NCBI GenBank assembly: GCA_016744135.1
Contig: JADGEX010000002.1
Coordinates: 806,001-870,000, forward strand
Source: Pseudodesulfovibrio sp.
Lineage (GTDB): Bacteria > Desulfobacterota > Desulfovibrionia > Desulfovibrionales > Desulfovibrionaceae
Reading direction: 5' to 3'
DNA length: 64,000 nucleotides
Positions 28,912-41,953 of the stretch are shown here, piece by piece. Below the pieces are notes generated by a model, which saw nothing but the letters and a program-made list of their open reading frames with translations, was not told where the DNA came from and ran no database searches. How positions within the stretch are numbered: the stretch's first letter is position 1; each line of letters begins with the position of its first letter. A program made the translations under genes and the position numbers.

Positions 28912-28945
28912 AAAGCCCCTTGCCGAGTTGGCAAGGGGCTTTTTA
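28912..28945. terminator. Bidirectional terminator between creD and the selenoprotein gene
   Basis: AAAGCCCCTTGCC / GGCAAGGGGCTTT, 13 near-perfect pairs, loop GAGTT, T-rich on the plus side and AT-rich on the minus side. Serves two convergent operons. Confidence 0.85.
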
Positions 28946-28975: not shown

Positions 28976-29269
28976 TCAGGCGTTCAGCGGAGTCAGGACA
29001 ACTTCCTTGTTTTCGTTGAATTGCAGAGAATACGTTTTCCCATATTTTTCCAGAAAGTCTTCTTCTGCGGTGAACGGAACACCATTTATTTCAATTTGTA
29101 CATCATCATCTTCATCCGGTTCGTCCATGCCCAGACCGAGCACTATTTTCGCGTGTCAGCCTCCGCCGACTTTGTATTCGCGCAGTCGAATACAGGTTTC
29201 TTCATCTTCGTCTTCAAGCATGGCCCGGAGCTTTTCAAGCATTTCTTCCGGGACGGTCAGTTCAAACAT
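28976..29269 (-). CDS. HesB/IscA-like selenoprotein (in-frame UGA = Sec38)
   Basis: A 97-residue reading frame on the minus strand, ATG at 29269 with GAGGG before it, interrupted only by TGA at 29158-29156. Read through as selenocysteine it gives 'IRLREYKVGGG-U-HAKIVLGLGMDEPD' followed by 'VQIEINGVPF', which aligns with HesB/IscA-like proteins where the GGC cysteine stands at the U position. The UGA is followed by an 18-nt interval and then loop GGUCU, closed by stem UGCUC/GGGCA: the same loop and the same distance as in the E. coli fdhF SECIS, which also starts UGA-CAC. HesB-like selenoproteins are a known bacterial class. It is the last gene after the glycyl radical activase and C_GCAxxG protein; a redox or cluster-carrier role is inferred. 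Confidence 0.85.
29116..29158 (-). promoter_or_regulatory. Bacterial SECIS element
   Basis: Directly 3' of the UGA on the minus-strand mRNA: CACGCGAAAATAGTGCTC, then loop GGTCT, then GGGCAT. Stem TGCTC/GGGCA (one wobble) with G-U in the loop, the feature recognised by SelB. Confidence 0.8.
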
Positions 29270-29292: not shown

Positions 29293-29835
29293 TTAGAATC
29301 TGACGGGCTTGAGCCCGTGTGTGGCAAATGTTCCAGTATGGTAGTTGATGATTTCATCATCGGCGTTCTCTGCCTTTTGCAGTGAGTCGGGGTGGAGAAG
29401 CAAATCGGCGCAGATGGCTGTCGCCGATTCCACGTAATCGAGACAGACTCCTTTGGAATCGGAATTTGGATCGCGGTCCTTGCTCAAATCCCGGCAACAG
29501 ATGCTGCCGTATTGAGTCAAGAAACGATCATATAATGCCTTTGATGCCTTTCGAACTTCATCATCATCGGTGGGCAGGGGGCCTTTTCCGAGAATGAGAC
29601 TTTGGGCCATGACCGCACCTGCCAATGCGCCGCAAACACATCCCGCATCGCCGATACCACCACAGAATCCTTTGGATATCGCAATGAGAATGTCTTGTGA
29701 CAATCCGCCGTCGAATTCCCGGTTGATGACCGTGAGTACTGCCTCGGAGCAGCACATTGAGCCATTGCCGTATAATTCTCTGGCTGTCGTGCCGGATTGT
29801 ATAATGAGGCGTGTATCTTGGGAGCGGGGTTTCAT
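29293..29835 (-). CDS. C_GCAxxG_C_C family redox protein
   Basis: 180 residues from the ATG at 29835 (GAGGA upstream); the longer reading would run back into the activase gene. Conserved cysteines appear as 'GSMCCSEAVL', 'GFCGGIGDAGCVCGALAGAV' and 'GSICCRDL', plus 'GVCLDYVESA', the pattern that names this family. Members are thought to be redox-active and often sit beside oxidoreductases in strict anaerobes. It is 20 bases from the activase and 23 bases from the selenoprotein gene, so all three are co-transcribed. Confidence 0.85.
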   Translation of the reverse strand: MKPRSQDTRLIIQSGTTARELYGNGSMCCSEAVLTVINREFDGGLSQDILIAISKGFCGGIGDAGCVCGALAGAVMAQSLILGKGPLPTDDDEVRKASKALYDRFLTQYGSICCRDLSKDRDPNSDSKGVCLDYVESATAICADLLLHPDSLQKAENADDEIINYHTGTFATHGLKPVRF

Positions 29836-29855
29836 CGTGTGTCCTCTCTGATTGC

Positions 29856-30749
29856 CTATACAATCACGGTGTTGAGGCCGTGGTTTGCAAATCGTTCGAG
29901 AATGACATCCAGTTGTTCCGGCGTGTATTCGCCAGACATGCGGTAGGCCCACCCGAGAGCGGCGTATTTGTTGCGGCCAAAAGCGTGACACGGCATGACT
30001 TCGATTTCTGGGCTATCGAATTCTTTGAAGAATTCTGCCATGGCGGCGATATTTTCGTCTGAATCGTTCATCCCCGGCATCAGGGGCATGCGGAGGCGGA
30101 CCTGTGTTTTTGAATTCAAGGCGGTTCGCAGATTGCGCAGAATTATTGTATTGTCTTGTCCTGTTAATTTTTTGTGCTGTTCAGGGTCCATGTGTTTGCA
30201 GTCAAACAAAAAAAGATCAGCCAATTCAATGGTTCTATCAAAGCGTTCAACGGGACAGAAACCGCAAGTATCCACGGTTACATGAAACCCTTCCTCATGT
30301 GCAGCACGTACCATATCCAAAAAGAATTCTCCGCCGGATGTTGGTTCTCCTCCGCCAAAGGTAACTCCGCCGTCAGAGTTTTCATAGAACAGAGCGTCTT
30401 TGCGCACGACATCCATGACGTCTTCAACGGTCATTTCCTTACCGGACATTTCACGGGCTTTGCTGGGGCAAACTTCGGCACATTTGCCACAGTCGGTACA
30501 TTTTTCGAGGTCACGGCCGAATTTTTCGTCCATTGGCATGACGGCTCCGTTGGGGCAGATCTCCATGCAGGCTCCGCATCCGGTGCACAGTGATTCAAAA
30601 AACATCATCTGCGGGGAGGATTTTTGAGATTCCGGATTACTGCACCAGAGGCAGGAGAGCGGACAGCCTTTCAAAAAAACCGTGGTTCGTAACCCCGGGC
30701 CATCCTGAACAGACATTCGTTGGATATTGTAAACCATTCCCTGACTCAT
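29856..30749 (-). CDS. Glycyl radical enzyme activating enzyme (radical SAM)
   Basis: 297 residues. Radical-SAM motif 'GCPLSCLWCSNPES' near residue 30 (CxxxCxxC), then two extra [4Fe-4S] clusters 'CTGCGACMEICPNGA' and 'CTDCGKCAEVCPSKA' that mark activases of non-PFL glycyl radical enzymes. 'GGVTFGGGEPT' and 'VTVDTCGF' are further family motifs. It makes the glycyl radical on the enzyme encoded just upstream (at 33338). RBS and start match at 30749. Confidence 0.93.
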   Translation of the reverse strand: MSQGMVYNIQRMSVQDGPGLRTTVFLKGCPLSCLWCSNPESQKSSPQMMFFESLCTGCGACMEICPNGAVMPMDEKFGRDLEKCTDCGKCAEVCPSKAREMSGKEMTVEDVMDVVRKDALFYENSDGGVTFGGGEPTSGGEFFLDMVRAAHEEGFHVTVDTCGFCPVERFDRTIELADLFLFDCKHMDPEQHKKLTGQDNTIILRNLRTALNSKTQVRLRMPLMPGMNDSDENIAAMAEFFKEFDSPEIEVMPCHAFGRNKYAALGWAYRMSGEYTPEQLDVILERFANHGLNTVIV

Positions 30750-30884: not shown

Positions 30885-33338
30885 TTAGGAGTTGTATTCC
30901 GTACGTTTGATGATTTCATTCTGTACGCCCATGTCCAAACGAGTGAAGTAGGCGCTGAAACCGGCAACGCGGACAACCAGATCTGAGTATTCTTTCGGGT
31001 TGACCTGCGCATCTTTCAGGGTCTTGGAATCCACGCAGTTGAACTGGATGTGGGAGCCGCCGAAGTCGCAGTATGTCTTGATTAGAGACACCAGTGTGCG
31101 TGCGCCCTGTGGGCCTTCCATGATAGAGGGAGAGAACTTCACGTTGAAGTGGTTTGCTCCGTAGCGGACTGTGTCGATGGCTTCTGCGCCGGACTTGATG
31201 AGAGCGGTGATGCCTTCATGGTCAGTACCGGGCATTGCGGAGACACTGCCGTCAGTCAGTGCGACACCAGCCTTGCGTCCGTTGGGCAGAGCGCCCATGA
31301 GTGCGCCGAAGTAGTTGTGGTAGGACAGGGAGTATGCGTCCAGCGGAGTGCGGTAGCCGAAGCAGTCCGGTCCTTGAGCATGGTGGATAGCATCAACATC
31401 TTTGTAGTACTGCTGCACAAAGCCTTCTACTTCAGGTTGGTCGTTGCCATGCTTGGGTGCTTCAAAACACATCTTGCGGATGTCTTCGCAGCCTTCGAAG
31501 TTTGATTTAATGGCGTCAAGCATCTCTTGCATGGTCAATTTCTTCGTATCGAAGACAAGATGCTTAATGGCGAGCAGGGAGTTCGCGGCATCAATACCAG
31601 CAGTCATGATGGGATTGACCTGCGGGAAACGGGTACCGCCGGCTTCTTCGCAGACACCCTTTTCGATGCAGCCGTCGTACATGGCGGAGCGGAAGACGCT
31701 CGGAACGACCTGAAGTCTGGCCATTTGGCTCAGATCAGAGTGCTTCCGAGAGATGTTGAAGAGATGGTCGAGCTGTTTCTTGTAGGCATCGTACACCTCG
31801 TCAAAGGATGTGAATTCGGCGGGATCGCCGGTCTCAACACCAACTTTCTTTTTGGTGACAGGGCATTTACCGTTGTTTAGCATGACTTCGACGATTTTTG
31901 CGAGGCAGGGCTGGTCTTCCTGAGTGATGAAGCTGCCCTTTCCGCAGATACCTGTGGAGACACAACCATAGTTACCGCAGTTTCTGGCGTCTTCCAGAGA
32001 GATGCCGCCTTCGTATTGACCGAAGCGGGAGAGGTTACGCTGAATAACTACGTTGTTGTTCAAAATCTGGGGCTGGCCGGAACCGCCGCGGATGCACTCT
32101 ACAACTTTCTTCAGGTAAGAGTCTTTCATCTTGGGATGATAGAGCAGGGTCAGCGTGGGCTGAATGTTCTTCATTTTGACCTGAGTATCGAGCAGCATTT
32201 CTTCCAGCTCGGTGCTGGCATCGTTGCCGTCGGCATCCACACCACCGATGGTGATGCTCTGTCCTGTGTGGCCGGAAAGGGTGAGAGCGTATGAGTTGCC
32301 CTGATATTCAGCCAGTTCAAGGTGCTTGATCCATTGGAATTTGAGCAGAGTGGAAACCTGCTCACGTGTGAGGTTGCCTTCGTCGATGTCTTTTTTGAAG
32401 AAGGGGTACATGTACTGACCGTAACGACCGGGGGACGTTGCGCATGCCATCTGTTCGATTTCAATGGCCAGATGGATGAACCAGAAGGATTGGATGGCCT
32501 CGCGGAAGTTGCGGGCCGGGAATTCTGGGACGCGGCGGCAAATCTCAGCGATTTCCAACAGCTCTTTTTTGGTCTTGGGATCGCTTTCATCGGCAGCGGT
32601 CTTTTCGGCGAGGTCTGCATAGCGGTGAGAGTGGGCGATGACAGCTTCCAAGGTGACGAGCATTGACCGATACAGGTCGTGCTTTTCCTTGTTTTCCAAT
32701 GTTGTGGGGCAGTCTTCAAAGCGCTTTTTTACATCATCAATGAGCCAGCGCAAACCCTTGTTCAGAGCCATGGGGTAGTCGGCGATACCGGAACCACTCG
32801 CGACACTGACATTTTCATAGTACATGCCAGCTTTGGCGTACGGCTTGGGGTTGATGCCGTACTTTTCTTTGAACAATTTGTTGTTCAGATCGATGCAGGT
32901 GCGGCCTTTCCACAGTTTGTAGGTCTTTTCCAGCAGTTCCTGTGTCTCGGCGGGAATCTTCATTTCGCCAAGAGAAGCCATTTTGGCCATCTGCATTTCT
33001 TCTTTGATCCAGGAAACGTTCCATTCGGGGTATGCATATACACCGGCTCGCACGCCAGTCAGTGTACCAACGATGGGGTTGCCGTCGAGGAAGATGTTCT
33101 TTTTGGTCAGAACGCGTTCAAATAATTTTGCGCGGATATAGAAAGTGGATTCTCCCTGATATTCTTTATAAACTTCATTCAGGAATTGCAGACGTTCAGG
33201 GTCCATTACCTGCGGAGCGTTCATCAGGAAGTTTTTGAGTTCTTTGACACGGTCTTCAGCGGTGTTCCAGTCGATGCCATATCCCATGGAGGGGGTAGCA
33301 GAGGATTCTGAATCTTTTATCATGGAAAGATTGGTCAT
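30885..33338 (-). CDS. Glycyl radical enzyme of uncertain substrate (C459-V-S461 active site)
   Basis: 817 residues, of the PFL/diol-dehydratase superfamily. The C-terminal glycyl loop 'RVAGFSAYF' places the radical at Gly793. The active-site cysteine is Cys459 in 'ARNCGNYGCVSTGICG'. Known eliminases and lyases (glycerol and propanediol dehydratase, CutC, hydroxyproline dehydratase, isethionate lyase) have Cys-x-Glu there; here Ser replaces the Glu, and PFL's Cys-Cys is also absent. So neither PFL nor a standard dehydratase is supported. RBS AGGAG precedes ATG 33338, and a consensus sigma-54 promoter lies about 80 bases before. Cytoplasmic. Substrate may be imported by the APC permease nearby (inference). 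Confidence 0.88.
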   Translation of the reverse strand: MTNLSMIKDSESSATPSMGYGIDWNTAEDRVKELKNFLMNAPQVMDPERLQFLNEVYKEYQGESTFYIRAKLFERVLTKKNIFLDGNPIVGTLTGVRAGVYAYPEWNVSWIKEEMQMAKMASLGEMKIPAETQELLEKTYKLWKGRTCIDLNNKLFKEKYGINPKPYAKAGMYYENVSVASGSGIADYPMALNKGLRWLIDDVKKRFEDCPTTLENKEKHDLYRSMLVTLEAVIAHSHRYADLAEKTAADESDPKTKKELLEIAEICRRVPEFPARNFREAIQSFWFIHLAIEIEQMACATSPGRYGQYMYPFFKKDIDEGNLTREQVSTLLKFQWIKHLELAEYQGNSYALTLSGHTGQSITIGGVDADGNDASTELEEMLLDTQVKMKNIQPTLTLLYHPKMKDSYLKKVVECIRGGSGQPQILNNNVVIQRNLSRFGQYEGGISLEDARNCGNYGCVSTGICGKGSFITQEDQPCLAKIVEVMLNNGKCPVTKKKVGVETGDPAEFTSFDEVYDAYKKQLDHLFNISRKHSDLSQMARLQVVPSVFRSAMYDGCIEKGVCEEAGGTRFPQVNPIMTAGIDAANSLLAIKHLVFDTKKLTMQEMLDAIKSNFEGCEDIRKMCFEAPKHGNDQPEVEGFVQQYYKDVDAIHHAQGPDCFGYRTPLDAYSLSYHNYFGALMGALPNGRKAGVALTDGSVSAMPGTDHEGITALIKSGAEAIDTVRYGANHFNVKFSPSIMEGPQGARTLVSLIKTYCDFGGSHIQFNCVDSKTLKDAQVNPKEYSDLVVRVAGFSAYFTRLDMGVQNEIIKRTEYNS

Positions 33339-33415: not shown

Positions 33416-33431
33416 AGCAGGAGGTGTGCCA
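33416..33431 (-). promoter_or_regulatory. Sigma-54 promoter of the glycyl radical enzyme operon
   Basis: Minus strand TGGCAC-ACCTC-CTGCT, near consensus, about 78 bases before the start codon. The divergent gene at 33641 encodes a sigma-54 activator, the likely regulator. Confidence 0.85.
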
Positions 33432-33640: not shown

Positions 33641-35137
33641 ATGTATTTTGACGAAAAAAAGTTCTTTAATGTCAGTCGTGAAAGCGTTTTGACACCTTCC
33701 ATGAAAGCTATCTGGGATGATATGGGACTTGGGGTCGCCGTTGTAGATGCCAATGGCATTTGCGAATACATGAATCCCATACAGAGTCAGGTGGATGGCT
33801 TTGGTCGGATACCCGTGGTGGGACAGCACATAACAAGTCTGTATGTGCCGCACGAATTGGAGTGTATTCCCACCATGGAATGCCTGCAGAAGGGACAACC
33901 GCTTCTCAAGAAGAGTTATTTTTACAAGACGACTAATAATTATCTCGCCAGCACGGTTTCCGATTTTTTTCCGCTGTTTGATAACGGTAAAAAGGATGGT
34001 GTTATTGCCTTCACCATCTGGACAGGCACGACGTCATTGGTGAAGCGGCAAAAACGTTTTGCAAAGGCTGTTGCTCCAGGGAAAAGTTCTTATGAATATT
34101 ATACGTTCGATAGTCTGGTCGGGAAAGATGATGCCCTGATTGAAGTGCTGAACGAAGCACGGACGGCAGCGCTGGCGCCGTCTCCGGTGATGATTTGGGG
34201 AGAAAGCGGCACGGGTAAGGAATTGTTTGCCCAGGCTATTCATGCCGCGAGTGATCGGTGCGACCATTCTCTTGTCCCGGTGAACTGTGCTGCCATCCCT
34301 GAAAATTTGTTGGAGGGTATTCTTTTTGGCACGGCCAAGGGCGCATATACTGATGCTGCTGACAAGCCGGGGCTTTTTGAAGAAGCCGATGGCGGAACAT
34401 TGCTTCTTGATGAGTTGAATTCCATGCCCATGGGATTGCAAGCCAAACTCCTTCGAGTGCTCCAGGAAAAACGTGTGCGTCGGCTTGGGTCGCGTACAGA
34501 AATACCAGTGGACGTGCGAGTTATTAGTATTTTGAACGTCGATCCTCTCTACGCCGTGGAGCAGAATATATTGCGGCGAGATTTGTTTTATCGTCTTGCT
34601 GTAGTGGGGCTTGCCGTGCCGTCCTTGAGTCAACGTAAGCAGGATATTCCGTTGTTGGCGCGAACCTTCATTGACCGTTCCGAACAGCGAAAGGGAATGA
34701 GAGCGATCAGCATTGATGAAGATGTTCTTCGTATGTTTAGCGATTATGAATGGCCGGGAAATATCCGCGAGTTGCTGCATGTTATTGAGGGAAGTCTCGC
34801 TTTGATTGGAGATCGTCTTTCAATCGATTGGGGGTGCCTCCCGCGTCATTTTCGAGATGCTTGCAGAAATGCAGCCGCACCGCGAATTACCGAGCCTTTG
34901 CTCTCTGAATCTGGGGTGAAGCAGTCGGTGGAGAAGGCTTTTTATGATTATCATGCCGTTAAAAGGAGTAGTGTGATTCCACTCAAGGGGTGTGTGCAAG
35001 AGTATGAGGCAGAATGTATCCGTAATGTGTTGCGGGTAACAGGCGGTAATGTGGCCAAGGCCGCACGGATTATGGAGATCACAGGTGCTGGTTTACGGTA
35101 CAAGATAAAGCAGCTCAATATTGAAGAAGAGGATTAG
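33641..35137 (+). CDS. PAS-domain sigma-54 activator of the glycyl radical enzyme cluster
   Basis: 498 residues: an N-terminal PAS domain ('GVAVVDANGICEYMNPIQSQ', about 25-135) in place of a receiver, AAA+ domain with 'GESGTGKE', Walker B 'GGTLLLDELNSM', and a Fis-type helix-turn-helix ('NVAKAARIMEITGAGLRYKI'). The sigma-54 contact loop reads GAYTDA rather than GAFTGA, a variant I believe occurs in PAS/RocR-like activators. It senses a small molecule or redox state directly. Divergent from the enzyme operon and close to the APC permease operon, both with sigma-54 promoters. Confidence 0.93.
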   Translation: MYFDEKKFFNVSRESVLTPSMKAIWDDMGLGVAVVDANGICEYMNPIQSQVDGFGRIPVVGQHITSLYVPHELECIPTMECLQKGQPLLKKSYFYKTTNNYLASTVSDFFPLFDNGKKDGVIAFTIWTGTTSLVKRQKRFAKAVAPGKSSYEYYTFDSLVGKDDALIEVLNEARTAALAPSPVMIWGESGTGKELFAQAIHAASDRCDHSLVPVNCAAIPENLLEGILFGTAKGAYTDAADKPGLFEEADGGTLLLDELNSMPMGLQAKLLRVLQEKRVRRLGSRTEIPVDVRVISILNVDPLYAVEQNILRRDLFYRLAVVGLAVPSLSQRKQDIPLLARTFIDRSEQRKGMRAISIDEDVLRMFSDYEWPGNIRELLHVIEGSLALIGDRLSIDWGCLPRHFRDACRNAAAPRITEPLLSESGVKQSVEKAFYDYHAVKRSSVIPLKGCVQEYEAECIRNVLRVTGGNVAKAARIMEITGAGLRYKIKQLNIEEED

Positions 35138-35204: not shown

Positions 35205-35939
35205 TTACAGCAATGAACGTCCCAAACAGACAACGCCTGCCAGTACAATGACGGCCATGAGAACGCGCCTGAATGTCTCGACATTGATATGTTTCACAAC
35301 AGGGAATGCGCAGAATGTTCCCAAGATGGTGGCTGGAACTCCATACATGACATAGTCGAGTAATGCCGGTGTATACAAGTCGGCTGAAGCTTGTAGAGCG
35401 CAGGTCATGGTGCCTCTGATGACGAAGAATACGCCAAGGGTTCCCAGAAAGACCCGAGGTTTCCAGTTGACATATAGTCCATACGCTCCAATGGGCGGGC
35501 CATCGAATGAAATGGCTGTTCCCAATAAACCTGCTCCGAATCCAGCCGCTCCACCTCGTCCCCATGATTCCTTATGGATTTTTTTTACATGGAATGTTTG
35601 TTGCCAATAAACATAGTAGAGGAGCAAAGCGCCGACGGCTCCCTGTAAGATGGCACCTGAGACAAATTGAAGGATGAACAGCCCAATAATGGCTCCGGGA
35701 ATGGACCCGACGAGCATGGGCCATAGAGCTGATACACGGCAATGGCGGAAATGCATGCATGCTATGCAGCCATCCATGATGACATTCAGGATACAACTGA
35801 GCGGGATGAGGTCATGCATGGGTATGAACATGGCGGCCACAGGGACTGCGACCATGGCTCCACCGATGCCACTGACGCCGGAAACAAAGCCACCGACAAA
35901 CCATGCACAGAAAACCATGATGTATATTGGATCAGGCAT
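35205..35939 (-). CDS. TSUP/TauE-SafE family permease
   Basis: 244 residues, about eight helices; opening 'WFVGGFVSGVSGIGGAMVAVP' and internal 'GFGAGLLGTAISFDGPPIGAY' are the two family repeats. TSUP proteins move sulfite, sulfonates or other organic anions. The ATG lies inside the end of the DUF4125 gene (8-base overlap), so the two are translationally coupled. Location in the glycyl radical island suggests export of a product or import of an anionic substrate; not determined. Confidence 0.88.
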   Translation of the reverse strand: MPDPIYIMVFCAWFVGGFVSGVSGIGGAMVAVPVAAMFIPMHDLIPLSCILNVIMDGCIACMHFRHCRVSALWPMLVGSIPGAIIGLFILQFVSGAILQGAVGALLLYYVYWQQTFHVKKIHKESWGRGGAAGFGAGLLGTAISFDGPPIGAYGLYVNWKPRVFLGTLGVFFVIRGTMTCALQASADLYTPALLDYVMYGVPATILGTFCAFPVVKHINVETFRRVLMAVIVLAGVVCLGRSLL

Positions 35940-36519
35940 CTGACGGTTTCCCTATCGCGTGTGAATGGTGTGCGGTCAGGTTCGATTCACAGTTTATTAG
36001 CGAGCCGTGTCCCAGTTTGACCATCAGGAGCTCATAGCGTTCCTGAACCAGATTTTGTTTTTCCTTTTGGGCGTTTTTCACGCAGATTTCATACGCATTC
36101 ATGGTCGAAGTGGAGTAAGTCTCAAGCTCACAGCCGAGATAACGACAAAAGCTCTCATGGCCGTCGGGGTGGATTGTTTGGGGAAATTTTTGTGCGACTT
36201 CTTTGCGCCATGTGCTTTCTACAGCGACGATTTCCTTGATGCGTGGGTCTGTGCTGATGGACGGAATCAATTGGTCCATCAGCGCATATTTTTCGGTCAT
36301 GAAGTTGCGTCCATATTCTTTCGCCCGTTGCAAGTCGTTGCGGTAGGAGCGGAGAAAGTCTTCCGAAAGAACTCCGTGAGTGATTTCACGCATGATGCGA
36401 AATGATTCAGGCCGCTCTTGGCACATAGAAGTGCCACCTTGATTTTTTACCGCAAGGAACATGTACAATTCGAGGTCTATGATTTCATTAATGAGGTTTT
36501 CGTGAGTATTTTCTGACAT
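35932..36519 (-). CDS. DUF4125 family protein
   Basis: 195 residues, start with AAGGAA upstream. Pattern 'NEIIDLELYMFLAVKNQGG', 'CQERPESFRIMRE', 'SEDFLRSYRNDLQRAKEYGRNFMTEKYA' and 'ELETYSTSTMNAYE' matches what I recall of DUF4125, found mostly in gut and sediment anaerobes. No signal peptide; mostly helical. Function unknown. Its coupling to a TSUP permease and closeness to a glycyl radical enzyme is the main clue. Confidence 0.7.
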   Translation of the reverse strand: MSENTHENLINEIIDLELYMFLAVKNQGGTSMCQERPESFRIMREITHGVLSEDFLRSYRNDLQRAKEYGRNFMTEKYALMDQLIPSISTDPRIKEIVAVESTWRKEVAQKFPQTIHPDGHESFCRYLGCELETYSTSTMNAYEICVKNAQKEKQNLVQERYELLMVKLGHGSLINCESNLTAHHSHAIGKPSDA

Positions 36520-36966: not shown

Positions 36967-36982
36967 TGGCATTGTCTTTGCT
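36967..36982 (+). promoter_or_regulatory. Sigma-54 promoter of the APC permease
   Basis: TGGCAT-TGTCT-TTGCT, near-perfect -24/-12 element; start codon is 285 bases downstream. Confidence 0.85.
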
Positions 36983-37034: not shown

Positions 37035-37232
37035 GCGGAGGACCTGTTCGCCCCTCTGCAATGACACAAAGACCATGGGGTTCGCTCTGGATTTTCAGAG
37101 TTCATGGTCGCCAAGTGGCTGGACGTATTTGTCCTTACGTCTCATGGCAGAGGCGTTGCCAGCATCGAGAAGTGTGTTGGCAGCACCGCTCTGAATGCCT
37201 GTCTGTATTGATTTGATGATTGATACAGGCAT
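37035..37232 (+). ncRNA. Structured 5' leader of the APC permease mRNA
   Basis: Five successive hairpins can be drawn between the sigma-54 promoter and the start codon: GCGGAGG/CCTCTGC (37035-37059); GACCATG/CATGGTC with an inner CTCTG/CAGAG (37071-37109); GACGTA/TACGTC (37122-37141); GTTGCCA/TGGCAGC (37155-37184); and ATGCCTGT/ACAGGCAT (37195-37232), the last ending 35 bases before the ATG. I do not recognise a known riboswitch. Such a long folded leader points to control by ligand, protein or antisense RNA. Confidence 0.5.
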
Positions 37233-37266
37233 CCACAAAGAACTCCTTAAATTGAAGAGAGTTGAC

Positions 37267-38790
37267 ATGTCTCAAGATAAACATTTGAAATTGGAAAAAT
37301 CGCTTTCCCCGGCTCAAGTCTGGGCGTTGGCGCTTGGATCGATAGTCGGCTGGGGTTGCTTTGTGTTACCCGGCGATATGTTTTTGCCTCAAGCCGGTCC
37401 AATGGGAACCTTGATTGGTTTTTTGGTAGGTGCCTGTTTACTGTGCTTTGTCGCGGTCTGCTATAGTTATATGATCAAGTATGCCCCGGTTGCGGGTGGC
37501 GCTTTTGCGTATGCCTATGTCGGATTCGGTCCGACTGCGGCATTTATTTGTGGTTGGGCACTCGTGCTCGGATATATAGCCATTATTGGTATTGATATTG
37601 CCGCGCTCGCACTTATTTTTCGTTTTCTTTTCCCAGGCGTTTTTGAATTTGGCGCGTTATATTCCATTGCCGGATGGGAAGTTTATACGGGTGAGGCCCT
37701 CCTCATGTCTGGCGCGACCTTGCTGTTTGGTTGGCTGAATTATCGAGGTATCAGTTTTGCTGGTAAGTTGCAGGTCGTTCTCGCTTTCCTGCTTACCGTT
37801 GGTATCATTAGTCTGTTTTCTGGTGCGGCTTCATTGGAAACCGCCAGCATGAGCAATCTTGTTCCCTTGTTTGCAGAACACCGCTCTGTCCTTTCTTGTG
37901 TGCTGGTTATTTTTGCTATTTCTCCCTTTCTTTTTGTGGGGTTTGATACAGTACCGCAGGCGGCTGAGGAATTTTCTTTTGATCCTGCACGTGCCCGTAA
38001 TATTATGATCATTGCCATTTTGTGTGGTGTCGTTCTCTACAGCCTTGTGACGCTTTCCGTTGCAATCGTTTTGCCGTACCCGGAAATGCTCGCAAAGATG
38101 GATGCCCTTCGTGCAAGTGGTGGCACCGCATGGGCAACGGGTGAAGCGGCCACCATGGCCTTCGGAAAGTTCGGTGCCATCGTGTTGGCCTGTGCTGTCA
38201 TGGGCGCTGTTTGCACCGGTATCAACGGTTTTTATATTGCTACCTCCCGGCTGTTGCTCAGCATGGCTCGTGGTGGAATCCTGCCTTCTTGGTTCGGTGA
38301 AATTCATCCCAAGTACCGTTCACCCTACAAGGCCATTCTGTTTACCATCGTCATTGTCTTGCTGACGCCCTTTGCCGGTCGTGCTGTCGTTGTTTGGATC
38401 GTTGACATGAGTTCTGTGGGGACGGGTATTGGTTACCTTTTCACTTGTCTTGCTGCTCGTCGTGTCTTGCTTGGTAGTCCTGAGGTGACAGACAGAGCCA
38501 CCCGCATGTTCTGCTGCGTTGTGGGTACGTTGACTGCTGTGATGTGCATTGTCCTGCTGCTTGTCCCCGGTTCTCCGGCCTCCATTGGTGTGGCTTCCCG
38601 CTGGTGCCTGGTGGCATGGGTTGGCATGGGCTTTTTCTTCTACTTCTCCAACAAGAGCGCATGGGCAAAGCTGCCTGAAGCGGATTTGCGGGCGCAGATT
38701 CTTGGTCGCCGAGATATCCCTGTGTTTTTCAAATCTCGTGAACCGCAGCCCGTGCTGCAGGAGCAAACACAGAGTTCCTCGGCTGAATAG
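37267..38790 (+). CDS. APC-family amino acid/amine permease
   Basis: 507 residues, about 12 helices, started at the ATG at 37267 (GAGAG upstream); the longer reading begins inside a leader hairpin. 'SLSPAQVWALALGSIVGWGCFVLPGD' carries the APC helix-1 glycine motif, and 'GFDTVPQAAEEF' is the conserved helix-6 segment. Such carriers take up amino acids, ethanolamine or other amines. Its sigma-54 promoter and position suggest it feeds the glycyl radical enzyme pathway, but the substrate is unknown. Ends before a strong terminator. Confidence 0.88.
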   Translation: MSQDKHLKLEKSLSPAQVWALALGSIVGWGCFVLPGDMFLPQAGPMGTLIGFLVGACLLCFVAVCYSYMIKYAPVAGGAFAYAYVGFGPTAAFICGWALVLGYIAIIGIDIAALALIFRFLFPGVFEFGALYSIAGWEVYTGEALLMSGATLLFGWLNYRGISFAGKLQVVLAFLLTVGIISLFSGAASLETASMSNLVPLFAEHRSVLSCVLVIFAISPFLFVGFDTVPQAAEEFSFDPARARNIMIIAILCGVVLYSLVTLSVAIVLPYPEMLAKMDALRASGGTAWATGEAATMAFGKFGAIVLACAVMGAVCTGINGFYIATSRLLLSMARGGILPSWFGEIHPKYRSPYKAILFTIVIVLLTPFAGRAVVVWIVDMSSVGTGIGYLFTCLAARRVLLGSPEVTDRATRMFCCVVGTLTAVMCIVLLLVPGSPASIGVASRWCLVAWVGMGFFFYFSNKSAWAKLPEADLRAQILGRRDIPVFFKSREPQPVLQEQTQSSSAE

Positions 38791-38911: not shown

Positions 38912-40735
38912 CTAACCGGTAATGGCCGCTTGAAAATGTTCAGCAATGCTAGGAGAGTTTTGGCCGATGATGACGAGAAAGCACTCATCCAGCGTTTGAT
39001 CGGCGGGAGTCAGAGTGTGCGACCCCGGGACGTATTGGAATATTTCCGGTTCTTCTGCATCATGAAAACGAACGACGCCTTTGGCTCGGAGGACTTGATT
39101 GGAAAGTTTTGCCACGGATTGTTCGAACACGGTGCGGTCAAGAGGATCGCTTAAGTGAATCAATGAACTTTGGATATTGTCATCTTCATGTGTGGCATTG
39201 TGGCCCATGGGTGCCAATTGGGGTGTTGGACGGGTGAGCTTTTTTCTGAAATTTACCCCGTACAGCGTGGTGGACGGGATGTCTCCATGGGACATGAAGT
39301 ACAGGTCGCCTGATGGATTGAGTTCGCGAAGAGTTTGTTTCAGGGAAATCAAAGCCTCGTCATCCACAAGATCGGTTTTGTTGACCAAAAGGATATCAGC
39401 CAGCCGGACCTGACTGCGTGCGACTTCGAATTCGGTCAGAGTGTGACTCGCACCGACTGCATCAATGACAGTTGTCACCGAGGCGAAGTCCAACATGTCG
39501 TCGAGGTCTGCCAGTTCAGAAAGCAGATTAGCTGGGTTGGCCAGTCCGGTTGTCTCCAGCACTACAAAATCCGGTTGGAATTCCGAAAGAATCCCAGAGA
39601 GAGCTGAGCGCAAACTGCCAGCGAGTGTGCAGCAGACACATCCCTCATCAACTTCGGTCACTGCATAACTTTGACCGAGAAGTTTTCCATCCAGTCCTTT
39701 CTGGCCGATTTCATTTTGAATGACCGCCACAAAGCCGTTTTTTGCCGCCTGATCTTCGATGAAACGGGTCAAGAAAGTTGTTTTGCCTGATCCGAGAAAA
39801 CCGGTCAGAACGATCAGCCGAGGCCGATCCGTGATACCCATGGTGCGTTTGTCCAGACTGTTGGACGCTCCAGGTAGATCGGCGGACAGCCACGGGGCAT
39901 CGGCGAATTCATCAGGTATGGAAGCTGGTGGAGACCATGCCAGTTCAGGTGTCCCGAGTTCCGGGTTGTTCGGGACAAGTGCGTTCCAGCCAAGGCCGAG
40001 ACGCAGGTCTTGTGTGTTTGGTGCTGGTTCGCTGTGAATACCGGTTTCTTTGCCGTATGTTCGCTGCATTCCGGGGCGAGTTTGGCGGGTCAGCGATTGA
40101 GGTGCTGTTTCTAGGCAGTATGATGCGGATGCAGCCAGTGCATCGAATAAGGGCATGGCTGTTTTCCATGCTGGAAAATTTTGATCTTTTTCGCCTGGAT
40201 TGACTGCTTGTATCAGCCCTGCCGGAGTTTCGAGTATGACTCCGTCCAATGCGATCACTGTATCGTTTTCCGGTGCAGTCAAAGTCAGGGCTACACCTGA
40301 TTCTTCGGATAGAAAGAATGCTTCAAGGACACCAACGCCAAAAAGGGCGCAGAGGTCGGGGTATAGGGTGAATTCTCGAACACGATCAAGATAATCGTCC
40401 TGTTGTGCTGCGATTCCCGCTTGTACGCTGAAAGATTCGATCAGGTCTTCGTCCGGGGCGGGAAAGTAGACGATATGAAAAGTTGCCTGTCCCATGCTGT
40501 CGGTTTCACTGACATTCAGAAATTTTAGGCCGTAAACGCCTTGCATGCCTGTGACGCGTACGGTCAATCCGCCTTGCCCTTTGGCGCAGTCGCGGACACC
40601 ACGCCAACCGAGACGGTGGCGAACGCCAGGAATGAAATTGGCTCGTGTCATCAGTGCGCGCGGAAGCTCCATTGCGGCTTGTGCCGGACTGGCCTGCAAG
40701 GCCGGAGGGAGCAGAGTGTTAAAGGGAGCAGACAT
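38912..40735 (-). CDS. CobW/COG0523-family GTPase with large extra N-terminal domain
   Basis: 607 residues. From about residue 300 it is a standard COG0523 metal-chaperone GTPase: Walker A 'LTGFLGSGKTTFL', metal motif 'EGCVCCTLAGSLRS' (CxCC), 'LETTGLANPANLL', 'NKTDLVD', and a CobW C-terminal domain. The first 290 residues are extra; I do not recognise a domain there. These GTPases deliver Zn, Co or other metals to target enzymes. Last gene of the GntR operon, 60 bases after the metallo-beta-lactamase-fold gene, which is a natural metal client. Confidence 0.88.
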   Translation of the reverse strand: MSAPFNTLLPPALQASPAQAAMELPRALMTRANFIPGVRHRLGWRGVRDCAKGQGGLTVRVTGMQGVYGLKFLNVSETDSMGQATFHIVYFPAPDEDLIESFSVQAGIAAQQDDYLDRVREFTLYPDLCALFGVGVLEAFFLSEESGVALTLTAPENDTVIALDGVILETPAGLIQAVNPGEKDQNFPAWKTAMPLFDALAASASYCLETAPQSLTRQTRPGMQRTYGKETGIHSEPAPNTQDLRLGLGWNALVPNNPELGTPELAWSPPASIPDEFADAPWLSADLPGASNSLDKRTMGITDRPRLIVLTGFLGSGKTTFLTRFIEDQAAKNGFVAVIQNEIGQKGLDGKLLGQSYAVTEVDEGCVCCTLAGSLRSALSGILSEFQPDFVVLETTGLANPANLLSELADLDDMLDFASVTTVIDAVGASHTLTEFEVARSQVRLADILLVNKTDLVDDEALISLKQTLRELNPSGDLYFMSHGDIPSTTLYGVNFRKKLTRPTPQLAPMGHNATHEDDNIQSSLIHLSDPLDRTVFEQSVAKLSNQVLRAKGVVRFHDAEEPEIFQYVPGSHTLTPADQTLDECFLVIIGQNSPSIAEHFQAAITG

Positions 40736-40795: not shown

Positions 40796-41953
40796 TTACC
40801 CGAAGGTAATGGTGTCCCCGTTGCCGAGGTATGCTTTATCTTTCGATCTGAACTTGGCGGTTCCTTCCACTACCGGATATCCGGCAGCGATGAACTTTTT
40901 GGCGCAGAGCACGCCGGTGCAATGATTGCAACCGATGCGCTCGAAGCCATAGTCGCCAAGTGAGATGACCAGATCGTCATACTTGGGATCCCAGTCATCA
41001 AAGGGCGAGATGTGCAATCCGCCGTAGATGCCGTGGCAATTGTCGTTTTCGTATTTGATCTCATTGTACGCGGTCTCGGCGAAACGGATGATGCCCTGAT
41101 GGCAGCAACCCGTGACGCTGACAAGTCCTTTGTCCGCTACGTTGAAGTACAGGGATTGCTCTCCGTACACGCGGCAGATGATGGGGATGGCGAAGACATA
41201 GCTTGCCATGCCGGGGATGACCTTGTTCAGTCCATTTTTGACCGTGATGAGCTTGCCCGTGTGGCCGCAGTCCTTGATGTACTGCAATCCTTCCGGGTAG
41301 AAGCCCTCGGGGATATAAATTGTTATATCCGGGTCGTATTTCAAAGCGACAGGGAGTCCCCAGAAGTGATCGAAGTGCTCGTGGGAGAAGAACAGAGCTT
41401 CGATTTCCTTGTTCTCCAGCATCTTGTCGATGCCTTCCCGTTTGAAGCATTCGTCACACCATTTATAGGACCAGCCCACGTCGAGGAGGAATTTCCGCTT
41501 GTTACCGCTCATTTCCTCAACTTCTACCAGTGCTGCATAACCACCCGCATTTTCGGGATGCACGGAGTTGGCTTCGATGATGTCCCAAGCTTCTTCCAAA
41601 CGGTTGGGCAGCAGGTGTTTGATTTTGGCGATACCTTCATCATACGATCCTTTTCCAAGCCCCTTGCCGTTGCCGAACGGGGGCCAGTTGTAGTCGTACT
41701 GGTTCACAAGCAGTCCACCTGCTCCCTTGATATCACCCATGAGAACACCGTTCTCGAACCAGCTTGTTTCCGAGATGTTCGTCACCTTGACGCTTCTACA
41801 CATCCCGATGTCTGTCATTTTACGTTCTGTTTCAGGGAAGTATCCTTCACGCATGGGGGAGTATGAATACAAGCCCATGGCTCCAAGCAGGCCGACGCCC
41901 ACACCGGTTGCGGCTCCCTTCAGGAAGTCGCGTCTTTTCATGTTGTCTGACAT
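40796..41953 (-). CDS. Tat-exported metallo-beta-lactamase-fold protein
   Basis: 385 residues. N-terminal 'KRRDFLKGAATGVGVGLLGAMG' is a twin-arginine signal. The fold's metal motif HxHxDH is present as 'FFSHEHFDHFWG', with 'GCCHQG' and a late His-Cys segment 'GCNHCTGVLCAKKF'. The overall layout resembles the dihydropterin/RFA-P-related group of MBL proteins, though the extra cysteines and export are unusual. Probably a periplasmic metal-dependent hydrolase or oxidoreductase anchored by the adjacent membrane protein. AAGGAG precedes the ATG. Confidence 0.82.
   Translation of the reverse strand: MSDNMKRRDFLKGAATGVGVGLLGAMGLYSYSPMREGYFPETERKMTDIGMCRSVKVTNISETSWFENGVLMGDIKGAGGLLVNQYDYNWPPFGNGKGLGKGSYDEGIAKIKHLLPNRLEEAWDIIEANSVHPENAGGYAALVEVEEMSGNKRKFLLDVGWSYKWCDECFKREGIDKMLENKEIEALFFSHEHFDHFWGLPVALKYDPDITIYIPEGFYPEGLQYIKDCGHTGKLITVKNGLNKVIPGMASYVFAIPIICRVYGEQSLYFNVADKGLVSVTGCCHQGIIRFAETAYNEIKYENDNCHGIYGGLHISPFDDWDPKYDDLVISLGDYGFERIGCNHCTGVLCAKKFIAAGYPVVEGTAKFRSKDKAYLGNGDTITFG

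Follow-up and report, generated by a model that had tools for sequence, protein, structure and literature searches.

The minus-strand gene examined here is predicted, on comparative evidence, to encode a selenocysteine (Sec)-containing, ErpA-related protein whose in-frame UGA would be recoded through a bacterial SECIS hairpin. Judging from gene spacing and promoter-like sites, it is probably the terminal gene of a putative operon under sigma-54 control that also encodes a glycyl radical enzyme and its activase, and the selenoprotein is most likely a dedicated redox or maturation partner of that enzyme. The proposed partnership provides a group of HesB/ErpA-fold selenoproteins with a concrete, testable biochemical partner and flags an unclassified clade of glycyl radical enzymes. 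This clade, including the enzyme of Desulfovibrio piger, a human gut species, may depend on selenium. All positions refer to the 64,000-nucleotide stretch of Pseudodesulfovibrio sp. DNA that was analysed (the window; Table 1); L and G numbers denote the stretches and genomes compared with it.

Table 1 Features of the selenoprotein gene and its neighbourhood in the window.
Feature	Position	Strand	Basis
ErpA-related HesB/IscA-fold selenoprotein gene (predicted), 97 residues, Sec at codon 38	28976..29269	-	NF033940; AlphaFold2-model fold
In-frame UGA predicted to be read as Sec, codon 38	29156..29158	-	Sec/Cys column in homologues
Bacterial SECIS hairpin (predicted)	29128..29142	-	stem UGCUC 29142-29138, loop GGUCU 29137-29133, stem GGGCA 29132-29128
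Terminator-like inverted repeat, 14 pairs, between selenoprotein gene and convergent creD	28912..28942	.	scored on + strand
C_GCAxxG_C_C family protein, between activase and selenoprotein	29293..29841	-	PF09719 94 bits; TIGR01909 74 bits
Glycyl-radical-enzyme activase, radical SAM and 4Fe-4S domains	29856..30749	-	TIGR02494 370.9 bits (cut-off 174); PF04055; PF00037
Glycyl radical enzyme, unclassified clade; thiyl-Cys loop GCVSTG, radical loop RVAGF	30885..33338	-	PF02901/PF01228
Sigma-54 type -24/-12 promoter-like site TGGCAC-N5-CTGC, 5' of glycyl radical enzyme	33416..33431	-	pattern match
Sigma-54 dependent regulator, PrdR-like, divergent to operon	33641..35137	+	PF00158; PrdR 313.9 bits, below cut-off 795
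TauE/SafE-type exporter, recurrent not constant neighbour	35205..35939	-	PF01925 107 bits
DUF4125 protein, recurrent not constant neighbour	35932..36519	-	PF13526 170.7 bits
Amino acid permease (APC), possible substrate importer	37195..38790	+	PF13520 105 bits

Putative operon and putative sigma-54 control

Downstream of the activase gene, the selenoprotein gene is the second gene, not the third as the first-pass annotation of this DNA had it. Sites of the form TGGCAC-N5-CTGC, which we take to be the sigma-54 -24/-12 pattern, are no commoner than chance across the window as a whole. When one mismatch is allowed, however, 30 of the 48 distinct upstream regions contain the promoter-like site, where mononucleotide shuffling would predict 0.2. 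These regions belong to enzymes that have the loop GCV[SGTA][TS]G and a predicted start preceded by 200 bases or more; as enzyme starts were set mechanically, some of the misses may reflect wrong starts.

The permease's cluster was found in 16 of the 60 sources that were compared, counting the window, and the neighbours differ between subgroups, with an APC permease, TauE/SafE, DUF169, and NMT1-like and DctP binding proteins among them. A second sigma-54-like site is located 5' of the amino acid permease gene (36967-36982, plus strand), and the permease and the operon may therefore be co-regulated by the PrdR-like protein encoded between them. Further along, a large CobW-type GTPase-like protein with an N-terminal extension (38912-40735, minus strand) adjoins a metallo-beta-lactamase-like protein with a Tat-like signal (40796-41953), both recognized by eye. 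A DUF4125 protein from a paper on limonene was also considered and set aside, since the part of that paper concerned (PMC12583861) places it in another operon, with no bearing here.

Protein family and fold

The translated product matches NF033940 (ErpA_rel, ErpA-related iron-sulfur cluster insertion protein) over residues 1-93 at 140.1 bits (curated cut-off 65). This is a full-length match that spans the UGA, in agreement with the earlier claim of homology on both sides of that codon, and the window protein is a member of the family. Its score against Pfam PF01521 is 25.9 bits, just below the cut-off of 26.3. The ErpA_rel family is already described in NCBIfam, under a model name that mentions neither a Sec form nor a glycyl radical enzyme. 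An AlphaFold2 model of the selenoprotein (13 sequences) has a mean pLDDT of 88.7, and Foldseek gave six matches at E ≤0.001, namely 9a4q_B (YNER), IscA (twice), HI1723, AQ_1857 and SufA, with query TM scores of 0.56-0.72 and rmsd values of 3.4-4.8; all six, judged partly by name, are of the A-type carrier fold. The modelled protein has an IscA-like fold. The HesB/IscA-like character proposed in the first-pass annotation thus held for the fold and for ErpA_rel membership, but the protein does not belong to the published HesB-like Sec family.

That published family is equated with TIGR01911 and given the motif UxGP in Table 1 of PMC13188914, and is assigned to TIGR01911 in a section of PMC9312934 as well; the entries listed for D. 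vulgaris and D. desulfuricans (Zhang 2006, PMC1794560) leave their branch unstated. The published protein (TIGR01911/NF038090, IscA_HesB_Se) has in common with the window protein the HesB/IscA fold, Sec at the equivalent GG-U position and occurrence in Desulfovibrio relatives. It differs in its UxGP motif, which is missing from the window protein; the latter also lacks a C-terminal Cys, scores 26.2 bits against NF038090 (cut-off 85) and gives no TIGR01911 match at E 0.001. Among the ErpA_rel homologues, xGP follows the site in none of the 88 Sec or Cys members. A gene of the published type is present elsewhere in the same genome, in the form of a TGA-containing canonical HesB-like gene (GG-U-AGP, C-terminal Cys) with a Cys paralogue about 2 kb away (L140 1501-1850 and L141; G000:C51:1617030-1617311, 1619285-1619572); both are over the NF038090 cut-off and neither is over that of TIGR01911. 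Membership of the window protein in the published family was rejected on account of the wrong motif and the low scores. These features, together with the published type found elsewhere in the genome, make the window protein a second, separate HesB-type selenoprotein. By eye, a catalase-like gene follows the canonical HesB-like selenoprotein gene.

A-type carriers (IscA, SufA and ErpA) need a C-terminal Cys pair as cluster ligands, the cysteines of IscA being C35, C99 and C101. The homologue set comprised 92 sequences, that is, members above 40 bits in 59 stretches (around family matches, from 54 other genomes) plus the window, with weaker HesB homologues in L157-L161 falling outside it. A Cys lying more than 25 residues beyond the Sec/Cys site is present in only one of the 92, so the IscA-type cluster site is incomplete, and a plain A-type carrier was rejected because the C-terminal Cys pair is missing.

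Linkage to an unclassified clade of glycyl radical enzymes

The window enzyme matches 12 NCBIfam models and falls short of the cut-off in every case, the best scores being 513.8 bits against 1100 (HYPD) and 509.1 against 678 (TIGR01774); seven of seven clade members from other loci likewise fail to reach the cut-offs of those models that were listed for them at E 1e-120. Its five best matches among solved structures (392-413 bits) bear five different names. In CutC, HYPD and glycerol dehydratase the sequence around the thiyl Cys is GCVE, whereas the clade has Ser, Gly, Thr or Ala in place of Glu: the loop [GS]CV[SGTA][TS]G was found in all 62 clade genes or pieces that cover it (65 in all). 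The clade thus lacks the Glu that is conserved in the dehydratase group two residues after the thiyl Cys. At a threshold of 499 bits or more, with the next match at 437, the clade was found in 55 of 288 Desulfovibrionaceae genomes. A scan of named genomes, for which 14 closer members were used because the 36-member alignment was too diverse, gave 12 ErpA_rel loci, including those of Desulfovibrio piger ATCC 29098, Mailhella, Pseudodesulfovibrio and other Desulfovibrio.

Across the same 288 genomes, ErpA_rel is present in 54 and co-occurs with the enzyme clade in 53 (Fisher p 2.5e-54, relatedness ignored), where ErpA_rel was counted at E up to 1e-9 and 52 of the 54 genomes are over the curated cut-off. 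The clade enzyme occurs without ErpA_rel in G503 and G656, the latter cut by a contig end. Conversely, of the 233 genomes for which no clade enzyme was listed, ErpA_rel was found in one, G485, which has a partial enzyme at the contig start (L113). Outside the family, one of 395 genomes of the phylum exceeds the NF033940 cut-off (G014, from another family).

The two genes are also adjacent. A HesB homologue lies within 2.5 kb of 58 of the 65 clade-enzyme genes or pieces, always on the same strand. The 65 were drawn from 70 stretches, window excluded, that had been chosen mostly by their HesB match, and L103 and L165, which belong to the same genome, probably represent opposite ends of a single gene; the count of the clade in 55 of 288 genomes is independent of this choice. 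Five of the seven enzymes with no HesB homologue nearby are at contig ends, and the other two are real absences in complete enzymes (the second copy in L115, and L155). Six stretches have HesB homologues and no counted clade enzyme (L089, L094, L104, L105, L124 and L135). Of these, L089 and L124 clearly lie at the edge of a contig, the contigs of L104 and L105 are short, and L094 is about 12 kb from the other cluster of the same genome.

The order enzyme-activase-HesB was found in 39 of the 58 arrangements and enzyme-HesB-activase in six; in the remaining 13, HesB again comes after the enzyme, but the 2.5 kb downstream on that strand contain no activase gene. Because HesB is kept in these 13, it is the enzyme and not the activase that is the constant partner. 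The link that the first-pass annotation drew to the activase is thus real but more aptly described as one to the glycyl radical enzyme; a tie to the activase in place of the enzyme was rejected, as the gene orders centre on the enzyme. Within 2.5 kb, the HesB sets consist of one Sec gene in 22 of the 58 cases, Sec and non-Sec genes together in 21, one non-Sec gene in 13 (including an Arg form in L157) and three non-Sec genes in two. Tandem Sec/Cys pairs suggest heteropairs or a back-up copy for low selenium.

The near-constant adjacency in the Desulfovibrio-type genomes examined suggests that the enzyme and the selenoprotein work together, and co-occurrence and adjacency lend strong support to the prediction that the ErpA_rel selenoprotein serves enzymes of this clade. 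The first-pass annotation knew of no description of the link; in keeping with this, a search of the literature on glycyl radical enzymes and HesB/ErpA/IscA selenoproteins gave no description of it among the matches listed, nor, among those listed, any selenoprotein dedicated to a glycyl radical enzyme. The terms ErpA, IscA and glycyl were likewise absent from the main text of a 2026 review of 119 selenoprotein families (term search).

Glycyl radical enzymes of other types are found near clade-type HesB genes in L094 and L132, and near a divergent HesB homologue in L135. In the last case (L135 8301-8513, G648), the divergent homologue contains Sec and adjoins an other-type glycyl radical enzyme (314 bits) and an activase. 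The link may thus reach further than the main clade.

Proposed role and alternative explanations

Small proteins dedicated to glycyl radical enzymes include subunits of 4-hydroxyphenylacetate decarboxylase and benzylsuccinate synthase, as well as the spare part GrcA, and some of them bear Fe-S clusters. The window selenoprotein would resemble these accessory proteins in being small and dedicated, and we know of no glycyl radical enzyme accessory protein with a HesB fold or with Sec. Judging by co-occurrence and adjacency, it most likely serves the enzyme itself in the role of a small subunit or chaperone. The Sec38 selenol would then act either on the oxidised thiyl/glycyl site of the enzyme or on a cluster passed to the enzyme, as far as the chemistry can be inferred. 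A more specific version is conceivable, though we hold it only tentatively: the protein could be a Sec accessory subunit of a new, Glu-lacking enzyme class, with Sec38 donating a hydrogen atom to the thiyl/glycyl radical or accepting one from it, so that the radical is quenched, stored or repaired, and with the protein working in many lineages as a Sec/Cys pair that arose by repeated tandem duplication.

A somewhat unlikely alternative is that the protein is an Fe-S carrier dedicated to the activase, loading or repairing the 4Fe-4S clusters of this radical SAM protein with Sec as one ligand. The HesB/IscA fold, the extra 4Fe-4S domains of the activase and the prevalence of the enzyme-activase-HesB order would all fit such a carrier. 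Two points speak against a simple carrier of this kind: the missing C-terminal ligands, on which A-type carriers depend, and a gene order centred on the enzyme, with HesB retained where no activase follows. It is less probable still that the selenoprotein handles a product or toxic by-product of the enzyme, such as sulfite or a thiol, instead of the enzyme itself. The TauE/SafE exporter and the amino acid permease that recur nearby hint at a sulfur- or amino-acid-like substrate and would suit this explanation, but neither is a constant neighbour, whereas the adjacency of enzyme and HesB is nearly constant. That a general A-type carrier or redox protein sits in the operon by accident is very improbable: its fold is indeed that of general carriers, but the gene is present in 53 of the 55 genomes with the enzyme clade and in only one of the 233 with no clade enzyme detected, there on a truncated contig, and separate canonical IscA_HesB_Se proteins exist in the same genome. 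The preferred reading is a partnership with the glycyl radical enzyme, in which the selenol would take part in the radical or thiol chemistry of the enzyme.

Reading frame, UGA codon and Sec decoding machinery

The first-pass annotation had claimed a 97-residue HesB/IscA-like frame with one in-frame TGA, and the frame and its NF033940 match bear this out: the frame starts with ATG, contains a single in-frame TGA and is ended by a second TGA after 97 residues. In the 92 homologues, codon 38 corresponds to Sec in 49, Cys in 39, Asp in two, Gly in one and Asn in one. The U thus occupies the Cys position of the family, as had been proposed, with Sec or Cys in 88 of 92 homologues instead of the random codons named beforehand as speaking against the claim; the four with neither residue are divergent exceptions. 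In the 49 Sec genes, which are from 47 genomes, the distance from the Sec codon to the first following stop is 52-75 residues (median 59), and the same UGA is present in a second genome of the same species (L078). Ten pairwise comparisons of the window with ten relatives gave pN/pS values of 0.02-0.31 for the part 3' of the UGA, indicating purifying selection. These data strongly support that this is a genuine, if predicted, selenoprotein gene.

In a tree of 90 rows, Sec and Cys were exchanged at least nine times on well supported branches and 17 times by parsimony, with few columns and several long branches. In the second cluster of D. piger ATCC 29098 (L157 11168-11410, on the same contig; enzyme-activase-HesB), the Sec/Cys position reads Arg by eye (GGDRHVTK), possibly through loss of the redox residue.

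The genes for Sec decoding, whose absence had been set in advance as evidence against the claim, are all present in the genome of the window: selA (612.5 bits), selB (398.8 bits), selC (78.7 bits, called tRNA-SeC by ARAGORN) and selD (340.8 bits; L018, G000:C51:2324234-2325163). The selD gene has one in-frame TGA and may itself encode a selenoprotein. Among the 55 genomes that carry the family (54 from the Desulfovibrionaceae scan and G014), selB is present in 46 of the 47 with a Sec form and absent from six of the eight with Cys forms only (Fisher p 6.5e-6, relatedness ignored). The exception among the Sec-carrying genomes is G647, a 96% complete draft in about 220 contigs, in which selB gave no match at E 1e-60.

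SECIS hairpin

The predicted hairpin has a five-pair stem starting thirteen bases after the UGA and a five-base loop starting 18 nt after it, and the UGA is followed by CAC. An fdhF-like SECIS had been claimed, and compared with the E. coli K-12 fdhF record, the UGA-CAC context, the 18-nt interval and the loop GGUCU agree, but the letters flanking the loop differ; loop and stem letters also vary among related loci. Once identical stretches were removed, 41 of the 49 Sec genes and 37 of the 39 Cys genes were left for counting. The complete five-pair stem is formed by 37 of the 41 distinct Sec genes, whereas 2000 synonymous-codon resamplings gave 6.4 on average and 14 at most; among the 37 distinct Cys genes it is formed by five (resampled mean 1.5). 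Within loop positions 1-2, a G is present in all 41 distinct Sec genes. Conservation of the predicted hairpin is thus far beyond chance.

In the 41-row Sec alignment, 97.1% of cells are paired and two-sided changes occur at three of the five pairs, whereas slid structures reach 24-52% and a Cys control alignment 67.1% (34 of the 37 distinct Cys sequences, without the three divergent copies L106:8399, L108:7745 and L109:7560). The shuffle control was mixed: the number of pairs with two-sided changes was reached in 35 of 500 shuffles, and the cells paired and covariation score in none of 500. Single-sequence searches were negative, with no match to Rfam SECIS at the gathering score in the window, chance matches only (E 1-3.3) in 141 bases, and folding energies that were not significant, either over 52 nt (z -0.28, with another structure best) or over 37 nt, where the hairpin is the minimum-energy structure, yet with z 0.25. 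The reading of this element as a SECIS is supported by covariation.

A UGA acting as a true stop in a decayed or wrongly sequenced gene is scarcely tenable and was rejected: UGA is a stop in table 11 and the hairpin is not significant in single-sequence folding, but the codon is kept at one position in so many genes and genomes, including the same-species genome, with the frame open and under selection beyond it and the hairpin covarying. In L082 and L085, which are among the Cys genes with a full stem, a Cys copy adjoining the Sec copy keeps UGCUC-GGUCU-GGGCA, which is likely a fossil of a Sec ancestor that changed from Sec to Cys after duplication.
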